From positions 186,001 through 250,000 of the forward strand of contig NZ_JACYFR010000004.1 in NCBI RefSeq assembly GCF_014837175.1: a stretch of 64,000 nt of DNA, in the 5' to 3' direction. The notes below the pieces were generated by a model that saw only the letters and a program-made list of their open reading frames with translations, was not told the origin of the DNA and did not search any database. Shown piece after piece: positions 4,256-61,530 of this stretch (the first letter of the stretch is position 1; each line of letters opens with the position of its first letter). Origin of the DNA: Cellulomonas sp. JH27-2. Lineage in GTDB: Bacteria > Actinomycetota > Actinomycetes > Actinomycetales > Cellulomonadaceae. The translations under genes and the position numbers were made by a program.

Positions 4256-6958
4256 TCACGTCCCGACGCTCCGCGCCAGGCGCCAGAGGCGGTCGGCGGT
4301 CATGGGGAGCTCGGTGGGGCGGACGCCCAGGGCGTCGCGGACCGCGTTGGCCAGGGCGGGGGCGACCGGGTTGTAGGGCGCCTCGCTCATCGACTTCGCG
4401 CCCAGCGGGCCCAGGTCGTCCGACGTGGCGGCGAAGTAGACCTCGGTGCGTGGCAGGTCGGCCATCTGCGGCACGTGGTAGCCGCGGAACGACGGGTTGA
4501 GCACGCGGCCCTCGTCGTCCAGGCGAACCTCCTCGAACAGAGCGGTGCCGATGGCCTGGCCGGTGCCGCCCTCCACCTGGCCGCGCAGCTGCTCGGGGTT
4601 GAGGACGACGCCGGCGTCGACGGCCTGGACGCTGCGCAGGATCGTCACCTCCCCGGTCCCGGGGTGCACCGCGACGCGGAAGGCGTGCACGTTGAACGCG
4701 ACCGAGCGCGGGGTGCCGTCGTGGTTGCCGTGCCCGACGAGACTGCCGGCGGCCGCTGCGATCGCGGTGAGCGGGATGTCGCCCGCGCCGGTCGACGACA
4801 GGGAGATCCCGTCCCAGGTGCGGGGCTCGTCGCTGGGGTGCTGGTGCAGGGCGGCGGCCGCGGCCAGGATCTTGCCCCGCAGCTGCAGGGCCGCCCGGTG
4901 CAGGGCCAGGCCCGCGACGACGACGCCGGCCGACCCGAACGCGCCCGTGTCGTAGCCGGTCACGTCGGTGTCGGACTGACGGATCACGACCCGGTCTGCG
5001 GTGGTACCGAGCGCGGTGGCGACCAGCTGGCCGTGGACCGTCGTCGTGCCGTTTCCGAACTCGGTGGTCCCGACGTTCGCCTCGTAGCGGCCGTCGTCGA
5101 GCAGGCGCACCGACGCCTCGGCGTAGTGGCCGCGCGGCGCGATCGTCGCGATCATCGCGACGGCCATCCCCTCGCCGATCCTGGCTCCCGGCGGCGCCTC
5201 GTCGGACGTGTCCGCCAGCGCCCGCTGCGCCAGGTCCAGGCACTGGTCCAGCCCGTAGGAGTTGATGTCCAGGTCGCCGACCTCGTCGGGGTCCGTCACC
5301 AGCAGGCGGTCGCCGGGCACGACGACGTTGCGGCGCCGCAGCTCGAAGGGGTCGATGCCGACCTCGCGCGCCAAGTCGTCCATCGCGGACTCGATCGCGA
5401 AGATGACCTGCCCCAGCCCGTACCCGCGGAAGGCCCCGGACGGCAGGGTGTGCGTGTAGACGGACTCGGCGTCGACGCGCTTGTTGGCGCAGCGATAGAC
5501 GGCCATCGACTCGCTGACCCCGTGGAACATGACGCCCGGGCCGTGGTTGCCGTACGCGCCCGTGTTGTTCAGGACGTCGATGCGCATCGCGGTCAGCACG
5601 CCGTCGTCGTCGGCCCCCAGCTCGACCTCCACCCGCACGGGGTGGCGCGTGGGGACGATCGTGAACTCGTCGGTGCGCGTCATCTCGTACTGCACGGCCC
5701 GCCCGGTGGTCAGGACGGCGAGCGCGACGACGTCCTCGGTGAGCAGCTCCTGCTTGCCGCCGAACCCGCCGCCCACGCGCCCGGTCAGGACCCGGACCTG
5801 CTTCGGGTCCAGGGCGAAGATGTGTGCGATCTCGTCCCTGACCAGGTACGGGACCTGCGTGCTGGTGCGCAGGACCAGGCGGCCGTCGTCGTCGAGCCAG
5901 CCTCTGGTCGCATGGGTCTCGAGGCTCGCGTGCGCCACGCGGCTGGTGCGGTACGTGCCGCCCGCTCGGTGTGCGGCAGCGGCCAGCGCGGCCGTGACGT
6001 CGCCCATCTCGTCGTGCATCTGCGCGACGACGTTGCGCCCGGCCTCCGAGATCCGTGCCTCCGGGCCCTTGTCGCCGTGGACCAGCGGGGAGCCGGCCCG
6101 TCGGGCGTCCTCCGGGTCGAATACCGCGGGCAGGACCTCGTACTCCACCTCGATCAGCGCACGGGCGCGCTCGGCGTCGCGCAGCGTCTCGGCGACGACG
6201 ACGGCGACGCGCTGGCCGCGGAACCGCAGCACCGGGTCCAGGACGCGGGTGTCGTCGGGGTCGTCGAGCCGGCTCTCGTGCCGGGCGGTCGAGAAGAGCG
6301 TGGCGGGGGAGTCCTCGTGGGTGAGGACCGCGAGGACTCCGCCCTGCTCGCGCGCTGCCTTCGCGTCGATCCGCACGATGCGCGCATGCGGGTGCGGGCT
6401 GCCCAGCACGGCGACGTGGGCGAGCTGGCTGGCAGGCACGTCGAGCGTGAACGACTCGTGGCCGGTGACGATCCGCTCGGCCGCGGGTGCGCGCAGCGGT
6501 CGGCCGGCGTCCTGGCCCTCCTTCGGCGGCGCGATGTTGGTGCGTCCGGCGACCGCGTCACAGATGGACCGGTAGCCGGTGCAGCGGCACAGGTTTCCCT
6601 TGAGTCGTCGCGCGGTGTCGTCGTCGGCCTGGATGTCGTTGCCCGCGACCGTCGTCACGAAGCCCGCCGTGCAGAACCCGCACTGGAACGCGGCGGCGTC
6701 GACGAACGCCTTCTGCACGCGCGCGATCCGCTCGTCGTCGCCCCGCACGGTCGTGACGCTGCGGCCCTCCGCGCGGTAGGCCGGCACCAGGCACGAGTGC
6801 GTCGGGCGGCCGTCGAGCAGCACCGTGCACGCCCCGCAGTCGCCCGCGTCACACCCCTTCTTGACCTCGGTGTGGCCGTGCTCGCGCAGCAGCGTGCGGA
6901 GCACCTGCCCGGGCGCAGGCTCGGTGTCGAGCGGCTCACCGTTGACCTCGAACCTCAT
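4256..6958 (-). CDS. Xanthine dehydrogenase, fused 2Fe-2S and molybdopterin subunits
   Basis: The ATG at 6958 gives a 900-residue protein, MRFEVNGEPLDTEPAPGQVL. The first 2Fe-2S cluster is at C36, C41, C44 and C56; the second is a helical domain with QCGFCTAGF and GNLCRCTGYR. The large molybdopterin domain follows, with GRVGGGFGGKQE, SGAFRGYGLGQV, FGSAGVVVAG and a C-terminal MSEAPYNPVAPALANAV that carries the usual catalytic glutamate. It oxidises purines such as xanthine, passing electrons to the FAD subunit next door, which it overlaps by 4 bases (ATGA). The fusion of iron-sulfur and molybdenum domains without FAD is a known actinobacterial layout. Confidence 0.9.
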   Translation of the reverse strand: MRFEVNGEPLDTEPAPGQVLRTLLREHGHTEVKKGCDAGDCGACTVLLDGRPTHSCLVPAYRAEGRSVTTVRGDDERIARVQKAFVDAAAFQCGFCTAGFVTTVAGNDIQADDDTARRLKGNLCRCTGYRSICDAVAGRTNIAPPKEGQDAGRPLRAPAAERIVTGHESFTLDVPASQLAHVAVLGSPHPHARIVRIDAKAAREQGGVLAVLTHEDSPATLFSTARHESRLDDPDDTRVLDPVLRFRGQRVAVVVAETLRDAERARALIEVEYEVLPAVFDPEDARRAGSPLVHGDKGPEARISEAGRNVVAQMHDEMGDVTAALAAAAHRAGGTYRTSRVAHASLETHATRGWLDDDGRLVLRTSTQVPYLVRDEIAHIFALDPKQVRVLTGRVGGGFGGKQELLTEDVVALAVLTTGRAVQYEMTRTDEFTIVPTRHPVRVEVELGADDDGVLTAMRIDVLNNTGAYGNHGPGVMFHGVSESMAVYRCANKRVDAESVYTHTLPSGAFRGYGLGQVIFAIESAMDDLAREVGIDPFELRRRNVVVPGDRLLVTDPDEVGDLDINSYGLDQCLDLAQRALADTSDEAPPGARIGEGMAVAMIATIAPRGHYAEASVRLLDDGRYEANVGTTEFGNGTTTVHGQLVATALGTTADRVVIRQSDTDVTGYDTGAFGSAGVVVAGLALHRAALQLRGKILAAAAALHQHPSDEPRTWDGISLSSTGAGDIPLTAIAAAAGSLVGHGNHDGTPRSVAFNVHAFRVAVHPGTGEVTILRSVQAVDAGVVLNPEQLRGQVEGGTGQAIGTALFEEVRLDDEGRVLNPSFRGYHVPQMADLPRTEVYFAATSDDLGPLGAKSMSEAPYNPVAPALANAVRDALGVRPTELPMTADRLWRLARSVGT

Positions 6959-7752
6959 GCCAGCTCCTGCCTGATCCGCTCCGCCAGGCGTCCCGCCATG
7001 GCCGCGCGCCAGTCGGGTGCGCCGTGCGGGTCGTCGTACCAGTCGTCGATGGCCGCAACGGCCCGGGCGACGTCGTCGGGGTTCGGGTCCGCGGTGAGCC
7101 CCAGGCGGTGCGGGCGCGTGACACCCGCGGTCACCGTCAGGACCAGGGCGTCGGGCGTGCGGCGGCCGACGACGATCACGCCGGAGCGCCCCTCCTTGGT
7201 GAGCGCGACCCGTCCGAACGCGGCCGGCTGGGCGAGCGTGGCGCGGTCGATCTCGATGCTGCGCAGCACCTCGTCGGGCCCCAGCGTCGTGGTGCGCACG
7301 CCCGTGACCAGGTCCTTCACGGCCTGGCGCCGCTCGCCGCCGTCCGGCGTCCACACGACCGCCGTCGCGTCCAGCGCCACCGCGAGGCTCGTCATCGCGC
7401 CCGCCGGGAGAGCCAGTGCGATGTTGCCGCCGACGGTCGCCCAGTCCCAGATCTTCTCCGACGCGACCAGGCTCCGCGCGCAGCGCTGCACCAGGTGCTG
7501 GCTCGCCCACCCGGTGATCGGTGCCAGCTCGACGAGCTCCCGGATGGTGCAGGTCGCGGCGATCGTCAGGACGTCGTCGTGAACCTCGACCGGCGCCCAT
7601 CCCATCGACGTCAGGTCCACCAGTTCGCGCAGCTCGGGTTGGGGTTCCGAGAACAGCCACGTCCCCCCGGCCAGGGGCGCACTCGTGGCGCTCAGCCCGA
7701 GGTCGGCGCACGAGCGGGCGACGCGGATGCGGTTCAGCGCGGTGAGGTCCAT
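6955..7752 (-). CDS. Xanthine dehydrogenase FAD-binding subunit
   Basis: A 265-residue FAD-binding protein of the CoxM/XdhB type and first gene of the dehydrogenase operon. FAD motifs are LAGGTWLFSEPQPEL near residue 28 and ATVGGNIALALPAGAM in the middle; the C-terminal part matches the CO-dehydrogenase flavoprotein C-terminal fold. It accepts electrons from the 2Fe-2S clusters of the fused subunit and reduces NAD+ or another acceptor. Its stop overlaps the next start by 4 bases, so the two are translationally coupled. Confidence 0.88.
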   Translation of the reverse strand: MDLTALNRIRVARSCADLGLSATSAPLAGGTWLFSEPQPELRELVDLTSMGWAPVEVHDDVLTIAATCTIRELVELAPITGWASQHLVQRCARSLVASEKIWDWATVGGNIALALPAGAMTSLAVALDATAVVWTPDGGERRQAVKDLVTGVRTTTLGPDEVLRSIEIDRATLAQPAAFGRVALTKEGRSGVIVVGRRTPDALVLTVTAGVTRPHRLGLTADPNPDDVARAVAAIDDWYDDPHGAPDWRAAMAGRLAERIRQELA

Positions 7753-53223: not shown

Positions 53224-54096
53224 ATGAAGATCGGTGTGCACCACTACCGGTACGACGCGGTGCCCACGGCGCAGCTGCGCACGGAGCTCCGGGACACGGG
53301 CCGCGCAGCCGACGACGCCGGGCTCGCCTGGTTGTCCGTCATGGACCACTACTTCCAGATGGAGCGCGCAGGGTTCCCGGCGAGCGACCCGATGCTGGAG
53401 GCGTACACGACGCTCGGCTACCTGGCCGGCGTGACCGAGAACGTGCAGCTGGGGACGCTCGTCACGGGCGTCACCTACCGCTACCCGGGGCTGCTGGCGA
53501 AGATCGGCGCGACGCTCGACGTGCTGTCCGGGGGCCGCGCGACGATGGGCATCGGCGCCGCCTGGTACGACCGCGAGCACGCGGCGTTCGGGGTGCCGTT
53601 CCCCTCGCTCAAGGAGCGGTTCGAGCTCCTCGAGGAGGCGCTGCAGATCCTGCACCAGATGTACGACCCGGCGCAGACCGGTCCGTACGAGGGCGCGCAC
53701 TTCCAGCTCGCGGAGACGGTCTGCGAGCCGATGCCGCTCAGCAAGCCGGAGATCATGGTGGGCGGGTCGGGGGAGCGCAAGACGCTGCGGCTCGTCGCCC
53801 AGTACGCCGACGCGTGCAACCTGTTCGGTGCGTCGGTGGACGAGACCCGGCACAAGCTCGACGTGCTGCGGGGGCACTGCGACGACGTGGGCCGCGACCC
53901 CGCCGAGATCCGGGTGACGATCCTGGCCGGGGGAGACCAGCTGCTCGTCGGCGACGTCGACGGGTTCGTCGAGGAGATGCGTCCCTACGGCGGGCTCGGC
54001 GTCGACACCGTCATCTTGCGCGTCCCGGAGACGGACCCCGCGCCGTGGATCCGCGACCAGGTGGCCCCCGCGGTCGCCCCCTTGTCCGACCTCTGA
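53224..54096 (+). CDS. LLM class oxidoreductase, probably F420-dependent
   Basis: A 290-residue luciferase-like TIM barrel. MKIGVHHYRYDAVPTAQLRT starts it, with LSVMDHYFQMERAG, LAGVTENVQLGTLVTGVTYR, LSGGRATMGIGAAWYDREH and the phosphate-site region IMVGGSGERKTLRLVAQYAD. The pattern is that of the actinobacterial F420-dependent group (TIGR03560-like). It is likely cotranscribed with the SDR gene. A nested hairpin lies after its stop at 54128. Confidence 0.88.
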   Translation: MKIGVHHYRYDAVPTAQLRTELRDTGRAADDAGLAWLSVMDHYFQMERAGFPASDPMLEAYTTLGYLAGVTENVQLGTLVTGVTYRYPGLLAKIGATLDVLSGGRATMGIGAAWYDREHAAFGVPFPSLKERFELLEEALQILHQMYDPAQTGPYEGAHFQLAETVCEPMPLSKPEIMVGGSGERKTLRLVAQYADACNLFGASVDETRHKLDVLRGHCDDVGRDPAEIRVTILAGGDQLLVGDVDGFVEEMRPYGGLGVDTVILRVPETDPAPWIRDQVAPAVAPLSDL

Positions 54097-54127
54097 ACCA
54101 GACCACCCCCGGTCATCCCTCCACCCA

Positions 54128-54197
54128 CCGAGACAGACCTCTACGGGTGAGATAGACCCTTGCAGGGGTCGATCTCACCGGGAAGGGTCTGTCTCGG
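54128..54197. repeat. Nested palindrome of GAGAYAGACC units
   Basis: Outer arms CCGAGACAGACC (54128-54139) and GGTCTGTCTCGG (54186-54197) are exact complements. Inside them GGTGAGAT (54146-54153) and GACCC (54155-54159) pair with GGGTC (54166-54170) and ATCTCACC (54172-54179), with one mismatch (A54154-G54171) and a bulged G54165. The motif GAGA[C/T]AGACC or its complement occurs four times. It could be a terminator for the LLM gene, an operator for the next operon, or a dispersed intergenic repeat. Confidence 0.6.
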
Positions 54198-54292
54198 CGC
54201 AGGTGCGAGGGGGACGCTCGGGACGGAAAGTGCTCAGGCGGGGCACAGGGGCGGCACAACGGAGGGACATCGCGGCTCCGTAGACAAGGGGC

Positions 54293-55294
54293 ATGAACAA
54301 CGCAGCCCCCCGCAAGCGCCGCAAGGTCCGCCGGGTAGTCGTCGCCTCCAGCCTCGCGTTCGTGCTGGTCGCGGGCGGCGGCACGGCCTGGGCCCTGGAC
54401 CGGTTCGTCGTCGACCACGTCGAGATCTCCGACGTCACCGCCTACGAGGCGCAGCAGTCGGCGAGCTCGTCCTCGGGCGACTCGTCCGACGCCGGCTCGA
54501 GCAGTGCCACCAACAGCGGCACGATCACCTCCACCAGCTACACGTCCGGCGACACGGACGTCAGCATCAAGAAGGTCACCACCGGCTCGGGCGACGACAC
54601 GGTCACCTACTACGTCGCCGACGTGACGCTCGACGACGCGACGACCCTGCGGTCCGCGTTCGCGAACGACGAGTTCGGCACCAACATCGTCGAGGACACC
54701 TCCGACATCGCGGCCGACAACGACGCGGTCTTCGCCGTCAACGGCGACTACTACGGCTTCCGCGACACGGGCATCGTCATCCGCAACGGCGTCGTCTACC
54801 GCGACAAGGGTGCGCGCGAGGGGCTCGCGTTCTACCGCGACGGCCACGTCGAGGTCTACGACGAGACGACGACGAACGCTCAGACGCTCGTCGACGCGGG
54901 CGTGTGGAACACGCTCAGCTTCGGGCCGGCGCTGCTCGAGGACGGCCAGGTCGTCGACGGCATCGACGACGTGGAGGTCGACACCAACTTCGGCAACCAC
55001 TCGATCCAGGGCGAGCAGCCCCGCACCGCGATCGGCGTGATCGACGACAACCACCTGGTCTTCGTCGTCGTCGACGGTCGCAGCACGGGGTACAGCAAGG
55101 GCGTCACGATGACCGGCCTCGCCGACATCATGAAGAGCCTGGGCGCGACGACGGCGTACAACATCGACGGCGGCGGCTCGTCGACCATGGTGTTCGACGG
55201 CGAGCTGGTCAACGACCCGCTCGGCAAGGGCCAGGAGCGCGGCACCTCCGACATCCTCTACATCGGCGGTCTGAGCTCGGCGGTGTCGTCGTGA
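54293..55294 (+). CDS. Phosphodiester glycosidase (NAGPA domain) membrane-anchored protein
   Basis: A 333-residue protein with one N-terminal membrane helix (VVVASSLAFVLVAGGGTAWA), a Ser/Thr/Gly-rich linker (~residues 60-95), then the NAGPA domain with AVNGDYYGFRDTGIVIRNG, TAIGVIDDNHLVFVVVDGRS, and YNIDGGGSSTMVFDGELVN. In animals this domain uncovers mannose 6-phosphate by cutting a sugar-phosphate diester; bacterial members act on cell-wall phosphoglycans or similar. Extracytoplasmic location is implied. It is the first of a five-gene operon and overlaps the GT2 gene by GTGA. Confidence 0.87.
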   Translation: MNNAAPRKRRKVRRVVVASSLAFVLVAGGGTAWALDRFVVDHVEISDVTAYEAQQSASSSSGDSSDAGSSSATNSGTITSTSYTSGDTDVSIKKVTTGSGDDTVTYYVADVTLDDATTLRSAFANDEFGTNIVEDTSDIAADNDAVFAVNGDYYGFRDTGIVIRNGVVYRDKGAREGLAFYRDGHVEVYDETTTNAQTLVDAGVWNTLSFGPALLEDGQVVDGIDDVEVDTNFGNHSIQGEQPRTAIGVIDDNHLVFVVVDGRSTGYSKGVTMTGLADIMKSLGATTAYNIDGGGSSTMVFDGELVNDPLGKGQERGTSDILYIGGLSSAVSS

Positions 55295-56367
55295 TCGTCC
55301 TGATCCCGGCCTACGAGCCCGACGAACGCCTGGTCCACCTGGTCCGCGCGGTGCGGCGGGAACGCCCGACGACGGACGTCGTGCTGGTCGACGACGGCAG
55401 CGGGCCCGCGTACGCACCGGTCTTCGCCGCGGCCGTCGCCGAGGGCGCCACCCTGCTGACGCACCCCGTCAACCAGGGCAAGGGCCGCGCGCTCAAGACC
55501 GGCTTCACGTACGTCGCCACCCAGCACCCCGGGCAGGGCGTCGTCTGCGCCGACTGCGACGGCCAGCACACACGGGCCGACATCCTCGCGGTCGCGGACC
55601 ACGCCCTCGCGGAGGACACCGCGGTGGTGCTCGGGGCGCGGCAGTTCACGGGCAGCGTGCCCCTGCGCAGCCGGTTCGGCAACGCGTGCACACGCTGGGC
55701 CTTCCGCGCCGGAACGGGCTGCTCCGTCCGGGACACCCAGACGGGGCTGCGGGCCTACCCCGCACACATGCTGCCCTGGCTGCTCGGGGTGCGCGGGGAG
55801 CGGTTCGAGTACGAGCTCGTCGTGCTCCTGCGGGCGGCGGCCGAGGGGCTGCCGGTCGAGGAGGTCACCATCGCGACCGTCTACCTGGACGGCAACGCGT
55901 CGTCGCACTTCCGACCGCTCGTGGACTCGTCGCGCATCTACGCCCCGCTCGTGCGCTTCGCCGCCTCGTCGCTGCTCGCGTTCGCGGTGGACGCGCTCGT
56001 GCTGCTGGCTCTCATGGCGCTGTCCGGATCGCTGCTCGCGTCGGTCATCGGGGCGCGCGTCGCCAGCTCGTCGGTGAACTTCGCCGTGAACCGGCTGTGG
56101 GTCTTCCGACGACGAGCCCGCCAGCCCGCGGGCCGCGAGGCGATCCGGTACTGGGTGCTGGCCGTCGCCCTGCTGCTGGCCGGCTACGGCGCGCTGTGGG
56201 CGCTGACCGGGATGGGCGTCCCCCTGCTGGTCGCGAAGGTCGGCACCGACCTCGCCCTGTTCGTCGTCGGCTACCAGGTCCAGCGCACGGCCGTCTTCGC
56301 CGGCACCACCCGATCCGTACCCGCGGCTCAGCGCTCGCACAGCGAACGCTCAGTGAACGCGGGCTGA
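55291..56367 (+). CDS. GT2 glycosyltransferase fused to a GtrA-like membrane domain
   Basis: GTG 55291 gives 358 residues. Residues 1-~215 form a GT2 domain: VIVLIPAYEPDERLV, VVLVDDGSGPAYAP, HPVNQGKGRALKTGFTYVA, GVVCADCDGQHTRADILAVA (the DXD region reads DCDGQ) and DTQTGLRAYP. From ~residue 220 a four-helix GtrA domain follows, with SSSVNFAVNRLWVFRRRARQ. Such fusions are thought to make or flip polyprenyl-phosphate-linked sugars. The transferred sugar is unknown. It may supply the glycan on which the upstream phosphodiester glycosidase acts. Confidence 0.88.
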   Translation: MIVLIPAYEPDERLVHLVRAVRRERPTTDVVLVDDGSGPAYAPVFAAAVAEGATLLTHPVNQGKGRALKTGFTYVATQHPGQGVVCADCDGQHTRADILAVADHALAEDTAVVLGARQFTGSVPLRSRFGNACTRWAFRAGTGCSVRDTQTGLRAYPAHMLPWLLGVRGERFEYELVVLLRAAAEGLPVEEVTIATVYLDGNASSHFRPLVDSSRIYAPLVRFAASSLLAFAVDALVLLALMALSGSLLASVIGARVASSSVNFAVNRLWVFRRRARQPAGREAIRYWVLAVALLLAGYGALWALTGMGVPLLVAKVGTDLALFVVGYQVQRTAVFAGTTRSVPAAQRSHSERSVNAG

Positions 56368-56401
56368 ATGGAACGCAACACGAAACCCCAGGAGGTCCCA
56401 G

Positions 56402-57004
56402 ATGTCCCCGTACGTGCTCTACGCCGTCGACCTGATCGCCATCGCCGTCCTCACGTTCGCGGTGTACCTGCCGCGGCACCACCGCCGTGACCTCGTGGTC
56501 GCGTTCCTCGGTGTCAACGTCGGCGTCCTGGCGGTGGCCGGGGTGCTCGCGCAGAGCACCGTCGGCGCCGGCCTGGGTCTCGGGCTCTTCGGGGTGCTGT
56601 CGATCATCCGCCTGCGCAGCACCGAGCTGTCCCAGCACGAGGTCGCGTACTACTTCGCGGCGCTGGCGCTGGGCCTCATCGGCGGCCTCGGGGTGGACCC
56701 GATCTGGTTGAGCGTCGCACTCATGGCCCTGGTCGTCGTGGTGATCGCGCTGGCCGACAGCCCGCGGCTCCTGTCCCGCTACCGCCAGCAGACGATGGTC
56801 GTGGACCGCGCGATCGTCGACGAGGTGGCGCTGGTCGCCCACGTCGAGCGCCTGCTCGGCTGCCGCGTCCACCAGGTGTCCGTGCAGCGGCTCGACCTGG
56901 TCAACGACACCACCGTCGTCGAGGTCCGCTACGCGACCGGCACCCCCGCGGCCGCGGTCGTGGAGACGGCCGCGGCGACCTCCACGCAGCAGGTGACCCG
57001 ATGA
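56402..57004 (+). CDS. DUF4956 membrane protein
   Basis: A 200-residue protein after an AGGAGGT ribosome site. Four hydrophobic segments occupy the first ~120 residues, with GLFGVLSIIRLRSTELSQHE and YYFAALALGLIGGLG in the centre; the C-terminal ~80 residues are soluble and beta-rich (HVERLLGCRVHQVSVQRLDL). This is the DUF4956 pattern. The family often neighbours VTC polyphosphate-polymerase domains, as it does here through a 4-base overlap. It is probably the membrane partner of that enzyme; its biochemical function is unproven. Confidence 0.87.
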   Translation: MSPYVLYAVDLIAIAVLTFAVYLPRHHRRDLVVAFLGVNVGVLAVAGVLAQSTVGAGLGLGLFGVLSIIRLRSTELSQHEVAYYFAALALGLIGGLGVDPIWLSVALMALVVVVIALADSPRLLSRYRQQTMVVDRAIVDEVALVAHVERLLGCRVHQVSVQRLDLVNDTTVVEVRYATGTPAAAVVETAAATSTQQVTR

Positions 57005-57762
57005 TCACCACGACGCACCTGGCCCCCATCTCGCTCGCCGAGCTCGACGCCGCGGCCTCGCTGCAGACCCGCGTGGATCGCAAGTACCTGGTCCCGACGC
57101 AGGCGCTCCCCGCCGTCGTCGCCGCGCTGGACCCGGCCACCCGGGTCCTCGAGATCGGCGGGCAGCGCGGTTTCGGCTACGAGTCCGTGTACTTCGACAC
57201 CCCGTCGCTGACCAGCTACCTGGGGGCCGCGCGGCGCCGGCGCAACCGGTTCAAGGTCCGCACCCGCACCTACCTGGACTCCGACCGCTGCTGGGTCGAG
57301 GTCAAGACCCGCGGCCCACGCGGCGCCACGGTCAAGACCCGCCAGGAGCACGAGGCCACCGGCCGCACCGAGCTGGACGACCCGGCCCAGGAGTTCACCA
57401 CCGAGCTGCTCGGTGCGCTGGACGGCCCGATGTCCCCGACCCTGGTCAGCACCTACGACCGGCTGACCCTGCACGTCCCCGCCGTCCAGCAGGGCCGCCC
57501 GGACAGCCGCACGACGATCGACACGAACCTGGTCTGGACCGACGCGACCACCGGCAGCGAGCGCGTGCTCGCGGGCCTGGCCGTCGTCGAGACCAAGACC
57601 GGCTCGACGCCCTCGTCGACCGACCGTGCGCTATGGCGGCTGGGCCACCGCCCGGTGCGCATCTCCAAGTACGGGACCGGCATGGCCGTCCTGCACCCCG
57701 ACCTTCCCGCGACGCCCTGGCGTCGAGTCCTCGACAGGCACGTGGCCCCGGCCACCGCCTGA
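57001..57762 (+). CDS. VTC domain protein (polyphosphate polymerase-like)
   Basis: A 253-residue protein made up of one VTC domain, the catalytic tunnel of the yeast polyphosphate polymerase Vtc4. Basic and acidic tunnel residues are visible: R27 and K28 in TRVDRKYLVP, YFDTP at 64-68, R-rich RRRRNRFKVRTRTYLD (78-93), the pair E100/K102 in VEVKTRGP, and VVETKTGS near the end. It may make polyphosphate from a nucleoside triphosphate, or bind it. It has no membrane helix; DUF4956 could provide one. It is the fourth gene of the operon. Confidence 0.88.
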   Translation: MITTTHLAPISLAELDAAASLQTRVDRKYLVPTQALPAVVAALDPATRVLEIGGQRGFGYESVYFDTPSLTSYLGAARRRRNRFKVRTRTYLDSDRCWVEVKTRGPRGATVKTRQEHEATGRTELDDPAQEFTTELLGALDGPMSPTLVSTYDRLTLHVPAVQQGRPDSRTTIDTNLVWTDATTGSERVLAGLAVVETKTGSTPSSTDRALWRLGHRPVRISKYGTGMAVLHPDLPATPWRRVLDRHVAPATA

Positions 57763-57775
57763 CCTACGTCAGGAG
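57758..57775 (+). promoter_or_regulatory. Hairpin covering the ribosome-binding site of the lipoprotein gene
   Basis: CCTGAC (57758-57763) and GTCAGG (57768-57773) flank CTAC. The right arm includes the start of the CAGGAG Shine-Dalgarno site, which lies 7 bases before ATG 57783. A 6-bp stem could limit translation of the lipoprotein relative to the genes before it. Confidence 0.35.
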
Positions 57776-57782
57776 CATCCCC

Positions 57783-59720
57783 ATGAAACGCTTCCTCACC
57801 CGCGTGGTCGCCCCCGCGGCGCTCGTCGCCGTCGTGCTGGCCGGTTGCACCTCCGACCCCGCCACCTCCACGGACTCGGGCACCGCCGCGACCACGACCA
57901 CCACGCCCAGCGCGGCGGACGCGGACGTGACGGTCGAGAGCACGATGGCCGCCAACACGGCCGCGCACACCGCGTCGGACGCGACCGGCGACGAGACCAC
58001 GATCACCCTGGACGACACGTCCGCCACCGTGAAGGGCGACGGCGCGAAGGCAGACGGCTCGACCGTCACGATCAGCGCCGCGGGCACGTACCGCGTCAGC
58101 GGCACGCTGACCGACGGCTCGATCGTCGTCGACAGCGACGACGACGGCACGGTCCGCTTGATCCTGGACGGCGCCGACATCACGAGCTCGACGACGTCGG
58201 CCATCGCGGTCACGGACGCCGGCGACGTGGTCGTCGAGCTGGCCGACGGCTCCACCAACAGCCTGTCCGACGCCAAGAAGTACACGGCCACGGGCGACGA
58301 CGCGCCCAACGCCGCCCTGTTCAGCAGCGCCGACCTGACCATCACGGGCACCGGCACGCTGGACGTCCAGGGCAACGCCAACGACGGCATCACCAGCAAG
58401 GACGGGCTCGTGATCGAGTCGGGGACCATCACGGTCACCGCCGCCGACGACGGCATCCGCGGCAAGGACTACCTGGTGATCTCCGACGGGACCATCAAGG
58501 TCACGTCCGGCGGCGACGCGCTCAAGTCCGACAACGAGAAGGACGCCACGCTCGGGTACGTCGAGATCGTCGACGGCACGGTCGACGTGACGGCCGGCGG
58601 TGACGGGATCGCCGCGCAGACCGATGCCGTGATCGCCGGTGGCACGGTCACCGTCGTCAGCGGCGACGGCCACGCGACCAAGGCGACCGACGACACGTCG
58701 ACCAAGGGCATCAAGGGCGCCGCGTCGGTCGTCGTCGGGGGCGGGACCGTCTCGGTCGACGCGTCCGACGACTCCGTCCACTCGAACGGCATCGTGTCCG
58801 TCACCGACGGTGCGCTGACGCTCGCCACGGGCGACGACGGCATCCACGCCGACGACGCGCTGCAGATCTCGGGCGGCACGGTGGACGTCGCGACGTCGTA
58901 CGAAGGTCTCGAGGCCGCGCAGATCGTGATCGCCGGCGGCGACACGTCGGTGAAGTCCAGCGACGACGGCGTGAACGGGTCGGCGGGGTCCTCCGACGAG
59001 GAGACGACCGACGCGACGACGTCCGACGACGACGCCCAGGAGGGCGGCCCCGGTGGCGGCATGGGCGGCGGTGAGATGGAGGCCGACGCGAACGTCATGG
59101 TCACGATCACCGGCGGCACGCTCGTGATCGACGCCGAGGGCGACGGACTGGACTCGAACGGCTCGGTCACGCAGAGCGGCGGCACGGTCGTCGTGTCCGG
59201 TCCTGAGAACGACGGCAACGGTGCGATCGACTACAACGGCACCTACGAGATCTCGGGCGGCGAGCTGATCGCCGTCGGGTCGTCGGGCATGGCGCAGACC
59301 CCTTCTGACGGCTCGTCGCAGTCGTTCGTCGGCATCACGCTGGACCAGGCCGGCAGCGCCGGCGACGTGATCCAGGTCGAGGACGCGGACGGCGACGTCC
59401 TCGCCGCGTTCACGGCCACGAAGTCGTACTCGTCGGTCGTGTACTCGTCGGCCGACGTCAAGGACGGCGACACCTACACGGCGGCCGTCGGTGGGAAGGT
59501 CGGCACGACCGTGGCCGGTCCGCTCTCGCACGACGGCGACGCGAGCGGCGCGACCGCCGCGGGCACCGGCACCGCGGGTGAGGTGTCCAGCGGGATGGGC
59601 GGCATGGCCGGCGGCATGGGTGGTGGCCAGGGCGGTGGGCCCGGCGGCGACGGCCAGGCCCCGCCCGACGGTGGCCAGGGCGGCCCCGGCGGCGACGGGC
59701 AGGCGTCCGTCAGGCCGTGA
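57783..59720 (+). CDS. Large beta-helix-like lipoprotein (carbohydrate-binding, DUF4353 type)
   Basis: ATG 57783 gives 645 residues. The signal ends in a lipobox, VVLAGC with Cys22, so the mature protein is lipid-anchored outside the membrane. After a Thr/Ser/Ala-rich linker, about ten repeats of a ~20-25-residue unit with D-D-G-I or related cores ([40 protein letters not shown]) suggest a right-handed beta-helix. A Gly/Met patch ([12 protein letters not shown]) interrupts it, and the last ~45 residues are Gly/Pro-rich. It matches the DUF4353 carbohydrate-binding group, found with VTC and CotH-like genes in other bacteria. It overlaps luxS by 11 bases. Confidence 0.8.
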
Positions 59721-60183
59721 CCTGCGACCAGGCGTCGCGCTCGGCGAGGAACGCGCGGGCGGCGTCCTGCGCACCCGTCAGCGTGTGGTTGGCACCCCAG
59801 CCGCACTGCACCTCGTTGGCGGCGGGCACCTCGTCGGCCACCAGTACGTCCTGCAGGGTGGCCTCGACCAGGCCGAGCACGTCGTCGTAGTCCCAGCTGC
59901 CCTGCAGGATCAGGTAGAACCCGGTCTGGCAGCCCATCGGGGAGAAGTCGATGACGCGGTCCGAGTGGTTGCGCGACTTCTCCGCGAAAAGGTGCTCGAG
60001 GGAGTGCACCGTGGGCATCTCGAGGTGGGCGACGTTGGGCTGGGTGAACCGGACGTCGTACTTCTCGATGACGTCACCCGCGGGAAGCTTCTTCGTGTCC
60101 GCCAGCCGCACGTACGGCGCGGCGACGGTGCGGTGGTCCAGGTTGAACGACTCGACGTTCATGCGGGGCTGCTGCTCGCTCAC
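59710..60183 (-). CDS. luxS: S-ribosylhomocysteine lyase LuxS
   Basis: A 157-residue enzyme starting [20 protein letters not shown]. Metal ligands are H60 and H64 in [11 protein letters not shown] and C127 in [10 protein letters not shown]85 in [11 protein letters not shown] is the catalytic cysteine. These match H54, H58, C126 and C84 of B. subtilis LuxS. It splits S-ribosylhomocysteine into homocysteine and DPD, the autoinducer-2 precursor. Its substrate is made by the nucleosidase at 38203. Whether AI-2 is used for signalling here cannot be told. Confidence 0.96.
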
Positions 60184-60243
60184 GTGCGCTCCTTCGATCG
60201 ACTCCCGTCATCCTCGCGCACTTTCGCGACACCTGTGACGGGG

Positions 60244-61413
60244 TCAGCCGCAGACGCCCGGGGACGTCGTCGGGCGGGGCTTGGCCTTCGTCGTGTGCGT
60301 GGACGTCGACGTCGGCTTGGGTGCCGGGTCCACGAGCGGACGGTCGCCCGCGACGCGCTGCCAGAGGTCGTCGGCGGCGGACGTCCACGCGACGCGACCG
60401 CTCTGGTGCGGGACGGAGGCCGTCGGCACGGTCACGGCCTCGATGTCGCTCCCGTCGACGCCACGGAGCCCGCTGGCGATGCCGGCCATCGACCGCAGGT
60501 CGCCCAGACCGGGGCTCACGCTGATCGCCTTGGTAGCCCGGTCCAGGACCTTCAGCAGCGTGGTGGGCTTGCCCAGCAGGTTCTCCGAGTGGACCTTGTC
60601 CGCGACCGCCTCGAGAAAGTCGTGCTGGCGGTCCAGGCGCTTCAGGTCGCTGCCGATCCACAGGTCGCCCCCCACGCCCGTGCGCGTCCGCAGCCACTGG
60701 ATCGACGTTCGGCCGTCGAACACCTGCTTGCCGGGAAGGACGTGCAGGCCGGACTTCTTCGAGTCCATCTTGGCGGGGACGCAGAACGGGACGCCGCCCA
60801 GGGTGTCGATGACGTCGCCGACGCCGACCATGTCCACGACCACGTGCTCGTCCGTGCGGACGCCCGTGACGGCCTCGACCGTCTTGCGGGTGCACGCGGC
60901 GGCCGTCGTGAGGTTGCCGTCCTTGCCCGCACCCACCTCGAACGACTCGTTGACGATCGAGGAGGTCGACGCGGGCGAGGTGCTCCCGTCGGCATGCGTG
61001 CACTCCGGCCGTGGCAGGAGCGAGTCGCGGGGGATCGAGACGACGTCGACGCGCGAACGGTCCGCGGGCAGGTGGACCAGGAAGAGCGAGTCTGCCCGCA
61101 TGCCGGGGACGTAGCCGAACTTCTTGTTCTTGCCCGCGCGTGAGTCGATGCCCATCACGAGGACGTTGACCGGCCTCCCCGCGTACCCGTCGACGAGCGG
61201 GTCGGCTGTGGCCGTCGTCGTTGGGCGCGCCGTGCCGAGGTACTTGTCGACGTCCGTCGCGGTGTCGATGTTGTGGTTGAGGTGCTGGTAGACGGCGAAC
61301 GCGCCGCTGGCGGCGAAGAGCGGGACGGCGACCAGGGCCGCGGTGACCCCGACGGCAACGCGGTGGCTGCGGGCGGGGCGACGCGAGTGGCGTGCGGGGG
61401 GCGGTGTGCTCAC
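60244..61413 (-). CDS. LytR-CpsA-Psr (LCP) family ligase
   Basis: GTG 61413 gives 389 residues; a TTG at 61422 is possible but less likely. One N-terminal membrane helix (VAVGVTAALVAVPLFAASGA) is followed by the LCP domain: NVLVMGIDSRAGKNKKFGYV, GMRADSLFLVHLPADRS, VVSIPRDSLLPRPE, and IQWLRTRTGVGGDLWIGSDL with the conserved arginines. LCP enzymes transfer lipid-linked glycans to peptidoglycan. Positions of four or more cysteines in the domain are consistent with disulfides. A Thr/Pro/Lys-rich tail ends the protein. It could attach glycans made by the clusters in this window. Confidence 0.9.
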   Translation of the reverse strand: MSTPPPARHSRRPARSHRVAVGVTAALVAVPLFAASGAFAVYQHLNHNIDTATDVDKYLGTARPTTTATADPLVDGYAGRPVNVLVMGIDSRAGKNKKFGYVPGMRADSLFLVHLPADRSRVDVVSIPRDSLLPRPECTHADGSTSPASTSSIVNESFEVGAGKDGNLTTAAACTRKTVEAVTGVRTDEHVVVDMVGVGDVIDTLGGVPFCVPAKMDSKKSGLHVLPGKQVFDGRTSIQWLRTRTGVGGDLWIGSDLKRLDRQHDFLEAVADKVHSENLLGKPTTLLKVLDRATKAISVSPGLGDLRSMAGIASGLRGVDGSDIEAVTVPTASVPHQSGRVAWTSAADDLWQRVAGDRPLVDPAPKPTSTSTHTTKAKPRPTTSPGVCG

Positions 61414-61530
61414 CCTTGGCAAACTAGGGTCGCGGACGTCCCGCGCGCAGCCGATCGCGGGGCGGTGCGGAAGAGATCAGGTGCGCGATCTGTGAAGATC
61501 GCCGCTGGTCAGCGGGCTGGGCCCCGTGAC

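Follow-up and report, generated by a model that had tools for sequence, protein, structure and literature searches.

A five-gene operon in the DNA analyzed here consists of two separable modules: a core, in which a DUF4956 membrane protein and a VTC-domain protein are joined by a third gene (here encoding a lipoprotein of the Cthe_2159 family), and an add-on composed of an NAGPA-type phosphodiester glycosidase and a GT2 glycosyltransferase fused to a GtrA domain. The operon lies in the window, by which we mean the whole 64,000-nucleotide stretch that was analyzed (186001-250000 of contig C4 in G000, a 3.73-Mb high-GC actinobacterial genome). It is real and conserved; its gene set varies one that is known but unexplained, and its mechanism is testable. 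The reading that we favor, at a probability of only about 0.35, has both modules coupled at the membrane and serving a single client on the surface. A first-pass annotation had listed five packed genes and given them a single joint function. All five are indeed present, with junctions of -4, 34, -4, and 20 bases, in order. The functional proposal is partly supported; the division into two modules and the likely MgtC-like character of DUF4956 had both been missed.

How constant is the core? Within the window's family, we examined 60 loci picked by VTC, and across the phylum another 20 picked by DUF4956. The former were the top 60 by VTC score, represent 57 of the 127 VTC-bearing genomes, and are skewed to high scores. 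Genes were called from codon scores with the genes labelled by hidden Markov models forced in, and L140 and L141 were judged from hits to open reading frames; calling based on GC content at third codon positions was dropped because at 53 of 81 loci it overlooked one or the other of DUF4956 and VTC. DUF4956 accompanied VTC at all 60 VTC-picked loci, and VTC accompanied DUF4956 at 19 of the 20 others. The order was DUF4956-VTC at 67 of these 80 core loci and VTC-DUF4956 at nine, with no clear pair at four; 64 of the 76 clear pairs overlapped by 4 bases. The first-pass annotation had named just this neighborhood, with CotH or DUF4353 proteins alongside (we take DUF4353 to be the former name of the Cthe_2159 family, PF14262). 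The third gene was Cthe_2159 at 48 of the 80 loci, including one remnant (a 40-bit match at L132, on a 6-kb contig without VTC), and CotH at 26 (called with seeds from five loci at E 1e-8). Both occurred together at L124 only, and seven loci had neither. Pfam verified CotH in nine of ten scanned neighbors; the remaining one (L136) was a helicase.

The core occurs in several variants. Three CotH proteins (L070, L101, and L105) contain a cellulose-binding CBM2 domain, suggesting a site of action outside the cell. At L131 (4613-6982, minus strand), a hydrophobic stretch connects a VTC domain to a CotH domain within a single open frame of 790 residues. A second class of VTC proteins (L062-L067; 152.7-172.7 bits) has the order VTC-DUF4956-CotH, with CotH verified by Pfam in L062 and L065; all six genomes have another VTC place. 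In a control set of 14 named genomes, matches to VTC and to DUF4956 coincided, both falling in three: Bacteroides ihuae, Corynebacterium glutamicum, and Methanosarcina acetivorans. CotH was found in the latter two and in Bacillus subtilis, and Cthe_2159 in B. ihuae. As judged from these sequences, the simplest reading is that DUF4956-VTC would serve an extracellular partner, mostly one of two kinds.

The add-on was surveyed from its own side, in the best 80 of 163 NAGPA relatives found by a contig scan with four NAGPA proteins. Among named records, the closest relatives of the window's NAGPA protein belong to Cellulomonas. A GT2-GtrA match adjoined NAGPA at all 80 loci, as a mere fragment in L169 and L188. 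Conservation of the five-gene order in relatives, which the first-pass annotation had named as a test of its proposal, was supported: at 41 of the 80, NAGPA-GT2 continued on the same strand and in the same order into DUF4956-VTC. These 41 loci belong to Cellulomonadaceae, Micrococcaceae, Microbacteriaceae, and Micromonosporaceae, and at 15 of them the gene caller placed a 4-base overlap between GT2 and DUF4956. At three more (L165, L186, and L193), the core stood divergent, head-to-head with NAGPA-GT2. These counts speak for more than a chance arrangement. Against this, the complete five-gene order is in the minority within the window's own family, where two of the 60 VTC loci have it; among the 20 phylum loci, one does.

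The two modules also co-occurred in genomes. VTC-domain proteins are common in the window's family (127 of 200 sampled genomes), as is Cthe_2159 (121), while NAGPA was found in 52. With no correction for kinship, VTC was present in 50 of the 52 NAGPA genomes vs. 77 of the 148 without NAGPA (Fisher 9e-10), and Cthe_2159 in 50 of 52 vs. 71 of 148 (Fisher 4e-11); within the genus (60 genomes), NAGPA occurred with VTC in 20 of 21 cases (p 0.005) and with Cthe_2159 in 21 of 21 (p 8e-5). From the linkage and co-occurrence counts, we view NAGPA-GT2 as an optional add-on that is rare without the rest. Twelve genes stand close behind unlinked NAGPA-GT2 pairs, and eight of them were scanned with Pfam: seven belonged to different, unrelated families and one had no match, which argues that the pair has no alternative partner. 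In a quick tree built from 81 NAGPA rows, linkage has to change at least eight times; many of its forks are weak, and no history was drawn from it. At L188, in a genome without VTC, the GT2 fragment and then a Cthe_2159 gene of reduced length come after NAGPA, an arrangement that looks like a deletion within the operon.

For VTC, a profile built from 47 bacterial proteins had yeast Vtc4 as its best match in the PDB (E 1e-16). In the alignment, R264, R266, K281, K294, R361, E426, K428, and K458 of Vtc4 face residues kept in 47 of 47 rows, and K200 faces a residue conserved in at least 90% of them. We take K200, K281, K294, R361, and K458 to be active-site residues of Vtc4. Those mutated to inactivate the enzyme are R264, R266, and E426 (PMC9911596). 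The polyphosphate-type polymerase domain of the first-pass annotation fits this conservation, and the window's VTC protein is predicted to be a polyphosphate polymerase. In textbooks, bacterial polyphosphate is the product of PPK, and PPK1 is also encoded in G000; VTC would thus be a second, membrane-side polyphosphate maker.

For DUF4956, an AlphaFold2 model (predicted local distance difference test, 85.6) comprises five long helices, predicted to be transmembrane, and a beta-alpha-beta-beta domain. All 51 rows keep R70 and R72, and each position of a basic stretch at 25-29 is conserved in 40 to 50 of them. If the C-terminal domain is cytosolic, R70, R72, and the basic stretch would face the cytosol in this model. 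The MgtC family (PF02308) likewise has membrane helices ahead of a C-terminal alpha/beta domain, and some DUF4956 relatives match that family: among CotH-class proteins, that of L062 reached the cut-off (31.4 bits, 2.7e-7) and those of L065, L137, and L138 scored below it; DUF4956 of L124 and L141 had no PF02308 match. In a profile comparison to MgtC, all DUF4956 rows scored 94.2% (85.6% at another setting) and the six CotH-class rows 97.8%. Controls gave up to 65.7% (block shuffles), 14.8% (column shuffles), and 0.6% (reversed alignment). From these profiles, DUF4956 appears to be a remote MgtC relative, a kinship that for the window's protein is likely, not proven. The DUF4956 profile had no Vtc match in the PDB up to E 10. 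In a fold search, neither PDB nor viral entries matched with an E of 0.001 or below; the best VIA Z was 5.3, and no fold was assigned.

The third gene of the window encodes a protein whose lipobox cysteine (Cys22, counted from the gene start at 57783) is invariant in 33 rows. Its AlphaFold2 model (85.9) has a beta-helix at about 70-500, a C-terminal beta domain, and disordered ends, with low confidence near 400-430. Together, the cysteine and the modelled helix agree with the lipid-anchored scaffold of the first-pass annotation. The model superimposes on Ca2+-bound Cthe_2159 of Clostridium thermocellum (4peu) with Z 31.1 and an rmsd (root-mean-square deviation) of 1.8 over 247 aligned residues at 34% identity. 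The two share the beta-helix core, and Cthe_2159 itself has an LTGC motif after a hydrophobic start; the window's protein differs in its longer helix, additional C-terminal beta domain, Gly-rich tail, and operon context. Its mature form is acidic (97 Asp/Glu vs. 20 Lys/Arg), with recurring DDG-type turns. Perhaps polyphosphate would be held to it via Ca2+ bridges.

What might the add-on act upon? The NAGPA protein has an N-terminal hydrophobic anchor (noted by eye) and a catalytic domain at 143-324. Its motifs NGDYYGFR, QPRTA, DGR, N-DGGGSS, and ERGTSD are largely kept across 81 rows, the RTA/DG/N-DGGGS core of phosphodiester glycosidases is present alongside PF09992, and animal and bacterial NAGPA-type structures match the protein. 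GT2-GtrA resembles ArnC and dolichol-phosphate mannose (DPM) synthase in a PDB search; it is PpgS-like, but far under the cut-off of the PpgS model. We predict that it is a polyprenyl-phosphate-sugar synthase with its own flippase-like domain. NAGPA is known as an enzyme for sugar-phosphodiesters (PMC12419801, PMC12024695). The first-pass annotation had it trim polyphosphate or a phospho-polymer, a role that is not supported: NAGPA cuts the sugar-phosphate glycosyl bond, which is absent from polyphosphate. Because its constant neighbor (80 of 80 loci) is the predicted polyprenyl-phosphate-sugar synthase, a lipid-linked sugar phosphodiester would be the nearer substrate. NAGPA's place outside the cell and the known need to free undecaprenyl phosphate (UndP) from UndP-sugars favor the same candidate. 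The UndP-sugar hydrolase UshA of B. subtilis, which resembles the alpha/beta hydrolase fold, meets this need (PMC11898649). At L145, in Cellulomonas biazotea, an alpha/beta hydrolase gene (6124-6969, plus strand) overlaps GT2 by 4 bases and occupies the place of DUF4956.

These parts can be assembled into the coupled-module reading as follows. VTC would draw on ATP to polymerize phosphate at the cytosolic face of the membrane. DUF4956, with five transmembrane helices, a likely MgtC-like build, and invariant arginines located, in this scheme, close to that face, would anchor VTC at the membrane and release the chain outward, comparable to the membrane domain of yeast Vtc1/3/4. In yeast, VTC threads the chain via a channel lined with basic residues (PMC9911596). 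The exported chain would serve the third protein: the acidic lipoprotein here, perhaps through Ca2+, and elsewhere the kinase-like CotH. Meanwhile, GT2-GtrA would synthesize a polyprenyl-phosphate sugar and then flip it. NAGPA, anchored externally, would cleave the lipid-phosphate-sugar bond; the sugar would pass to the lipoprotein, as the common client, or to a nearby glycan, or else the carrier lipid would be freed. The recurring gene order across related bacteria indicates that the parts probably cooperate at the cell surface. A more ambitious version, which we regard as unlikely, casts the system as a bacterial, outward counterpart of yeast VTC. In it, VTC and an MgtC-like DUF4956 conduit would thread polyphosphate to the surface, where it would provide a phosphate donor to a CotH kinase in a place where ATP is scarce, or would cross-link a Ca2+-type acidic beta-helix; NAGPA would replace a GT-C transferase, taking sugar from polyprenyl phosphate onto the client.

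Several observations weigh against coupled modules with a common client. The window shares with the yeast VTC complex (Vtc1/Vtc3/Vtc4) a VTC/TTM (triphosphate tunnel metalloenzyme) domain with the same active-site residues and a paired membrane protein with conserved basic residues. Unlike in yeast, the partner is a separate DUF4956 protein, the site would be the plasma membrane, and neither an SPX nor a Vtc1-like domain turned up in the Pfam scan of the five genes (the search did not extend to the rest of the genome). As for the MgtC kinship, the window's DUF4956, coupled to VTC unlike MgtC proteins, had no PF02308 match up to E 1, and the 41 window-type rows alone scored 43.9% (E 2e-4), within the block-shuffle noise. 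At 36 of the 80 NAGPA loci, the pair had no core within the fetched DNA; VTC was elsewhere in 33 of these genomes and missing from three, so the modules can part (two of the three still carry Cthe_2159). The co-occurrence tests ignore kinship. DPM-type synthases usually yield beta-linked sugars. The known NAGPA cleaves an alpha linkage (PMC12024695). This difference disfavors a direct match between the GT2-GtrA product and NAGPA.

Could the modules have nothing but their regulation in common? GT2-GtrA and NAGPA might be a make-and-release pair for carrier-lipid housekeeping, NAGPA hydrolyzing flipped UndP-sugars and returning the carrier, with shared envelope-stress or phosphate control, and no common product, as the link to the core. 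UndP-sugar hydrolases are known, the example being UshA, although that enzyme is cytosolic and has a different fold (PMC11898649). The constancy of NAGPA-GT2 at 80 of 80 loci, its separability from the core, and the lack of a GT-C transferase among the five genes (by Pfam; the rest of the genome was not searched) all fit. However, a pair that makes and then cuts its product in a single operon would be futile and costly, and VTC and Cthe_2159 in 50 of 52 NAGPA genomes each would be left unexplained; we find this account improbable. A further alternative places regulation or binding in the core itself: an MgtC-like DUF4956 would govern ATP or phosphate balance, VTC would be a triphosphate-tunnel sensor or phosphatase, and the beta-helix would be a co-regulated adhesin. 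In its favor, hydrolases and cyclases are known among TTM enzymes, DUF4956 has its probable MgtC kinship, and Salmonella MgtC targets both ATP synthase and the uptake of phosphate. One predicted adhesin cluster is, moreover, distantly related to Cthe_2159 (PMC9210967). Against it, the bacterial VTC proteins retain the polymerase residues of Vtc4, and both the VTC-CotH chain and the alternation of Cthe_2159 with CotH link VTC to an outside protein. This scheme, too, seems doubtful to us.

Two other proposals involve a glycan or a polymer. The genes could be accessories that aid the export or fixing of a biofilm exopolysaccharide, phosphate chemistry modifying the glycan. There is precedent at Gram-positive pel loci: streptococci and clostridia have CotH, polyphosphate polymerase, and DUF4956 next to pelDEADAFG, bifidobacteria have a variant (PMC7112168), and regulation by phosphorylation is suggested there for the set. 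The window shares the VTC and DUF4956 neighbors of that set; it differs in that Cthe_2159 replaces CotH, with NAGPA and GT2-GtrA added. G000 has no CotH match, and no polysaccharide synthase was found among the five genes and four flanking ones (annotation stopped at these nine genes, and no search aimed at pel genes was made). We hold this view to be quite unlikely. The polymer envisaged by the first-pass annotation, a membrane-made phospho-sugar chain trimmed outside by NAGPA, draws on the presence in one operon of two enzymes, VTC and NAGPA, that both act on phosphate-bearing polymers or diesters. Pfam found no sugar-phosphate polymerase among the five genes, and NAGPA's constant partner resembles a maker of a lipid-linked monosaccharide; this idea is highly improbable.

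The coupled-module reading has partial counterparts in the literature. In multi-component glycosylation, a GT-A enzyme makes a C55-P-sugar, which GtrA flips for transfer by a GT-C enzyme (PMC8035078). By sequence, the add-on resembles such CsbB-GtcA-YfhO type systems in its GT-A C55-P-sugar synthase and GtrA flippase, here fused; unlike them, it has no GT-C in the operon and has NAGPA in the outside place. A single clostridial locus with polyphosphate-polymerase-domain and CotH proteins has been described (PMC11677781). In the excerpts of open-access literature covered by our search, no experiment on the DUF4956-VTC pair was found, nor any description of Cthe_2159 as the alternative third gene, of the MgtC link, of the VTC-CotH chain, or of the NAGPA-GT2 extension. 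The fixed VTC-DUF4956 pair with its alternating surface partner makes the role of bacterial VTC directly testable; it also gives DUF4956 a candidate function and bacterial NAGPA a candidate physiological substrate.

Coordinates of the operon genes and the upstream hairpin in the window
Feature	Position	Strand	Evidence
Long GC-rich nested hairpin, no T tract	54128-54197	.	RNA fold -52.1 kcal/mol, z -6.4
NAGPA-type phosphodiester glycosidase, 333 aa	54293-55294	+	PF09992, E 8e-40
GT2 glycosyltransferase + GtrA/DPMS membrane domain, one fused protein, GTG start	55291-56367	+	PF00535 + PF04138
DUF4956 membrane protein, 200 aa	56402-57004	+	PF16316, 9e-62
VTC/TTM domain protein, 253 aa	57001-57762	+	PF09359, 2e-23, 83.5 bits (cut-off 23)
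Cthe_2159-family lipoprotein, 645 aa	57783-59720	+	PF14262, 8e-95

The limits of the operon were judged from its surroundings. The hairpin stands between an upstream luciferase-like gene and NAGPA and is probably the operon boundary; LuxS and a LytR-CpsA-Psr protein are encoded convergently, immediately downstream (59710-61422). With the hairpin on one side and convergent LuxS on the other, the five genes look like the entire unit. A Pfam scan of the four flanking genes identified SDR (short-chain dehydrogenase/reductase), luciferase-like, LuxS, and LytR-CpsA-Psr. An Rfam scan of the window gave no matches at gathering, and a sigma-70 promoter scan of 54000-60300 gave none. Three terminator-like sites were found in 54000-60300, every one on the minus strand, vs. 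0.9 expected. At L144, a hairpin of differing sequence occupies, by eye, the same spot as that in the window.

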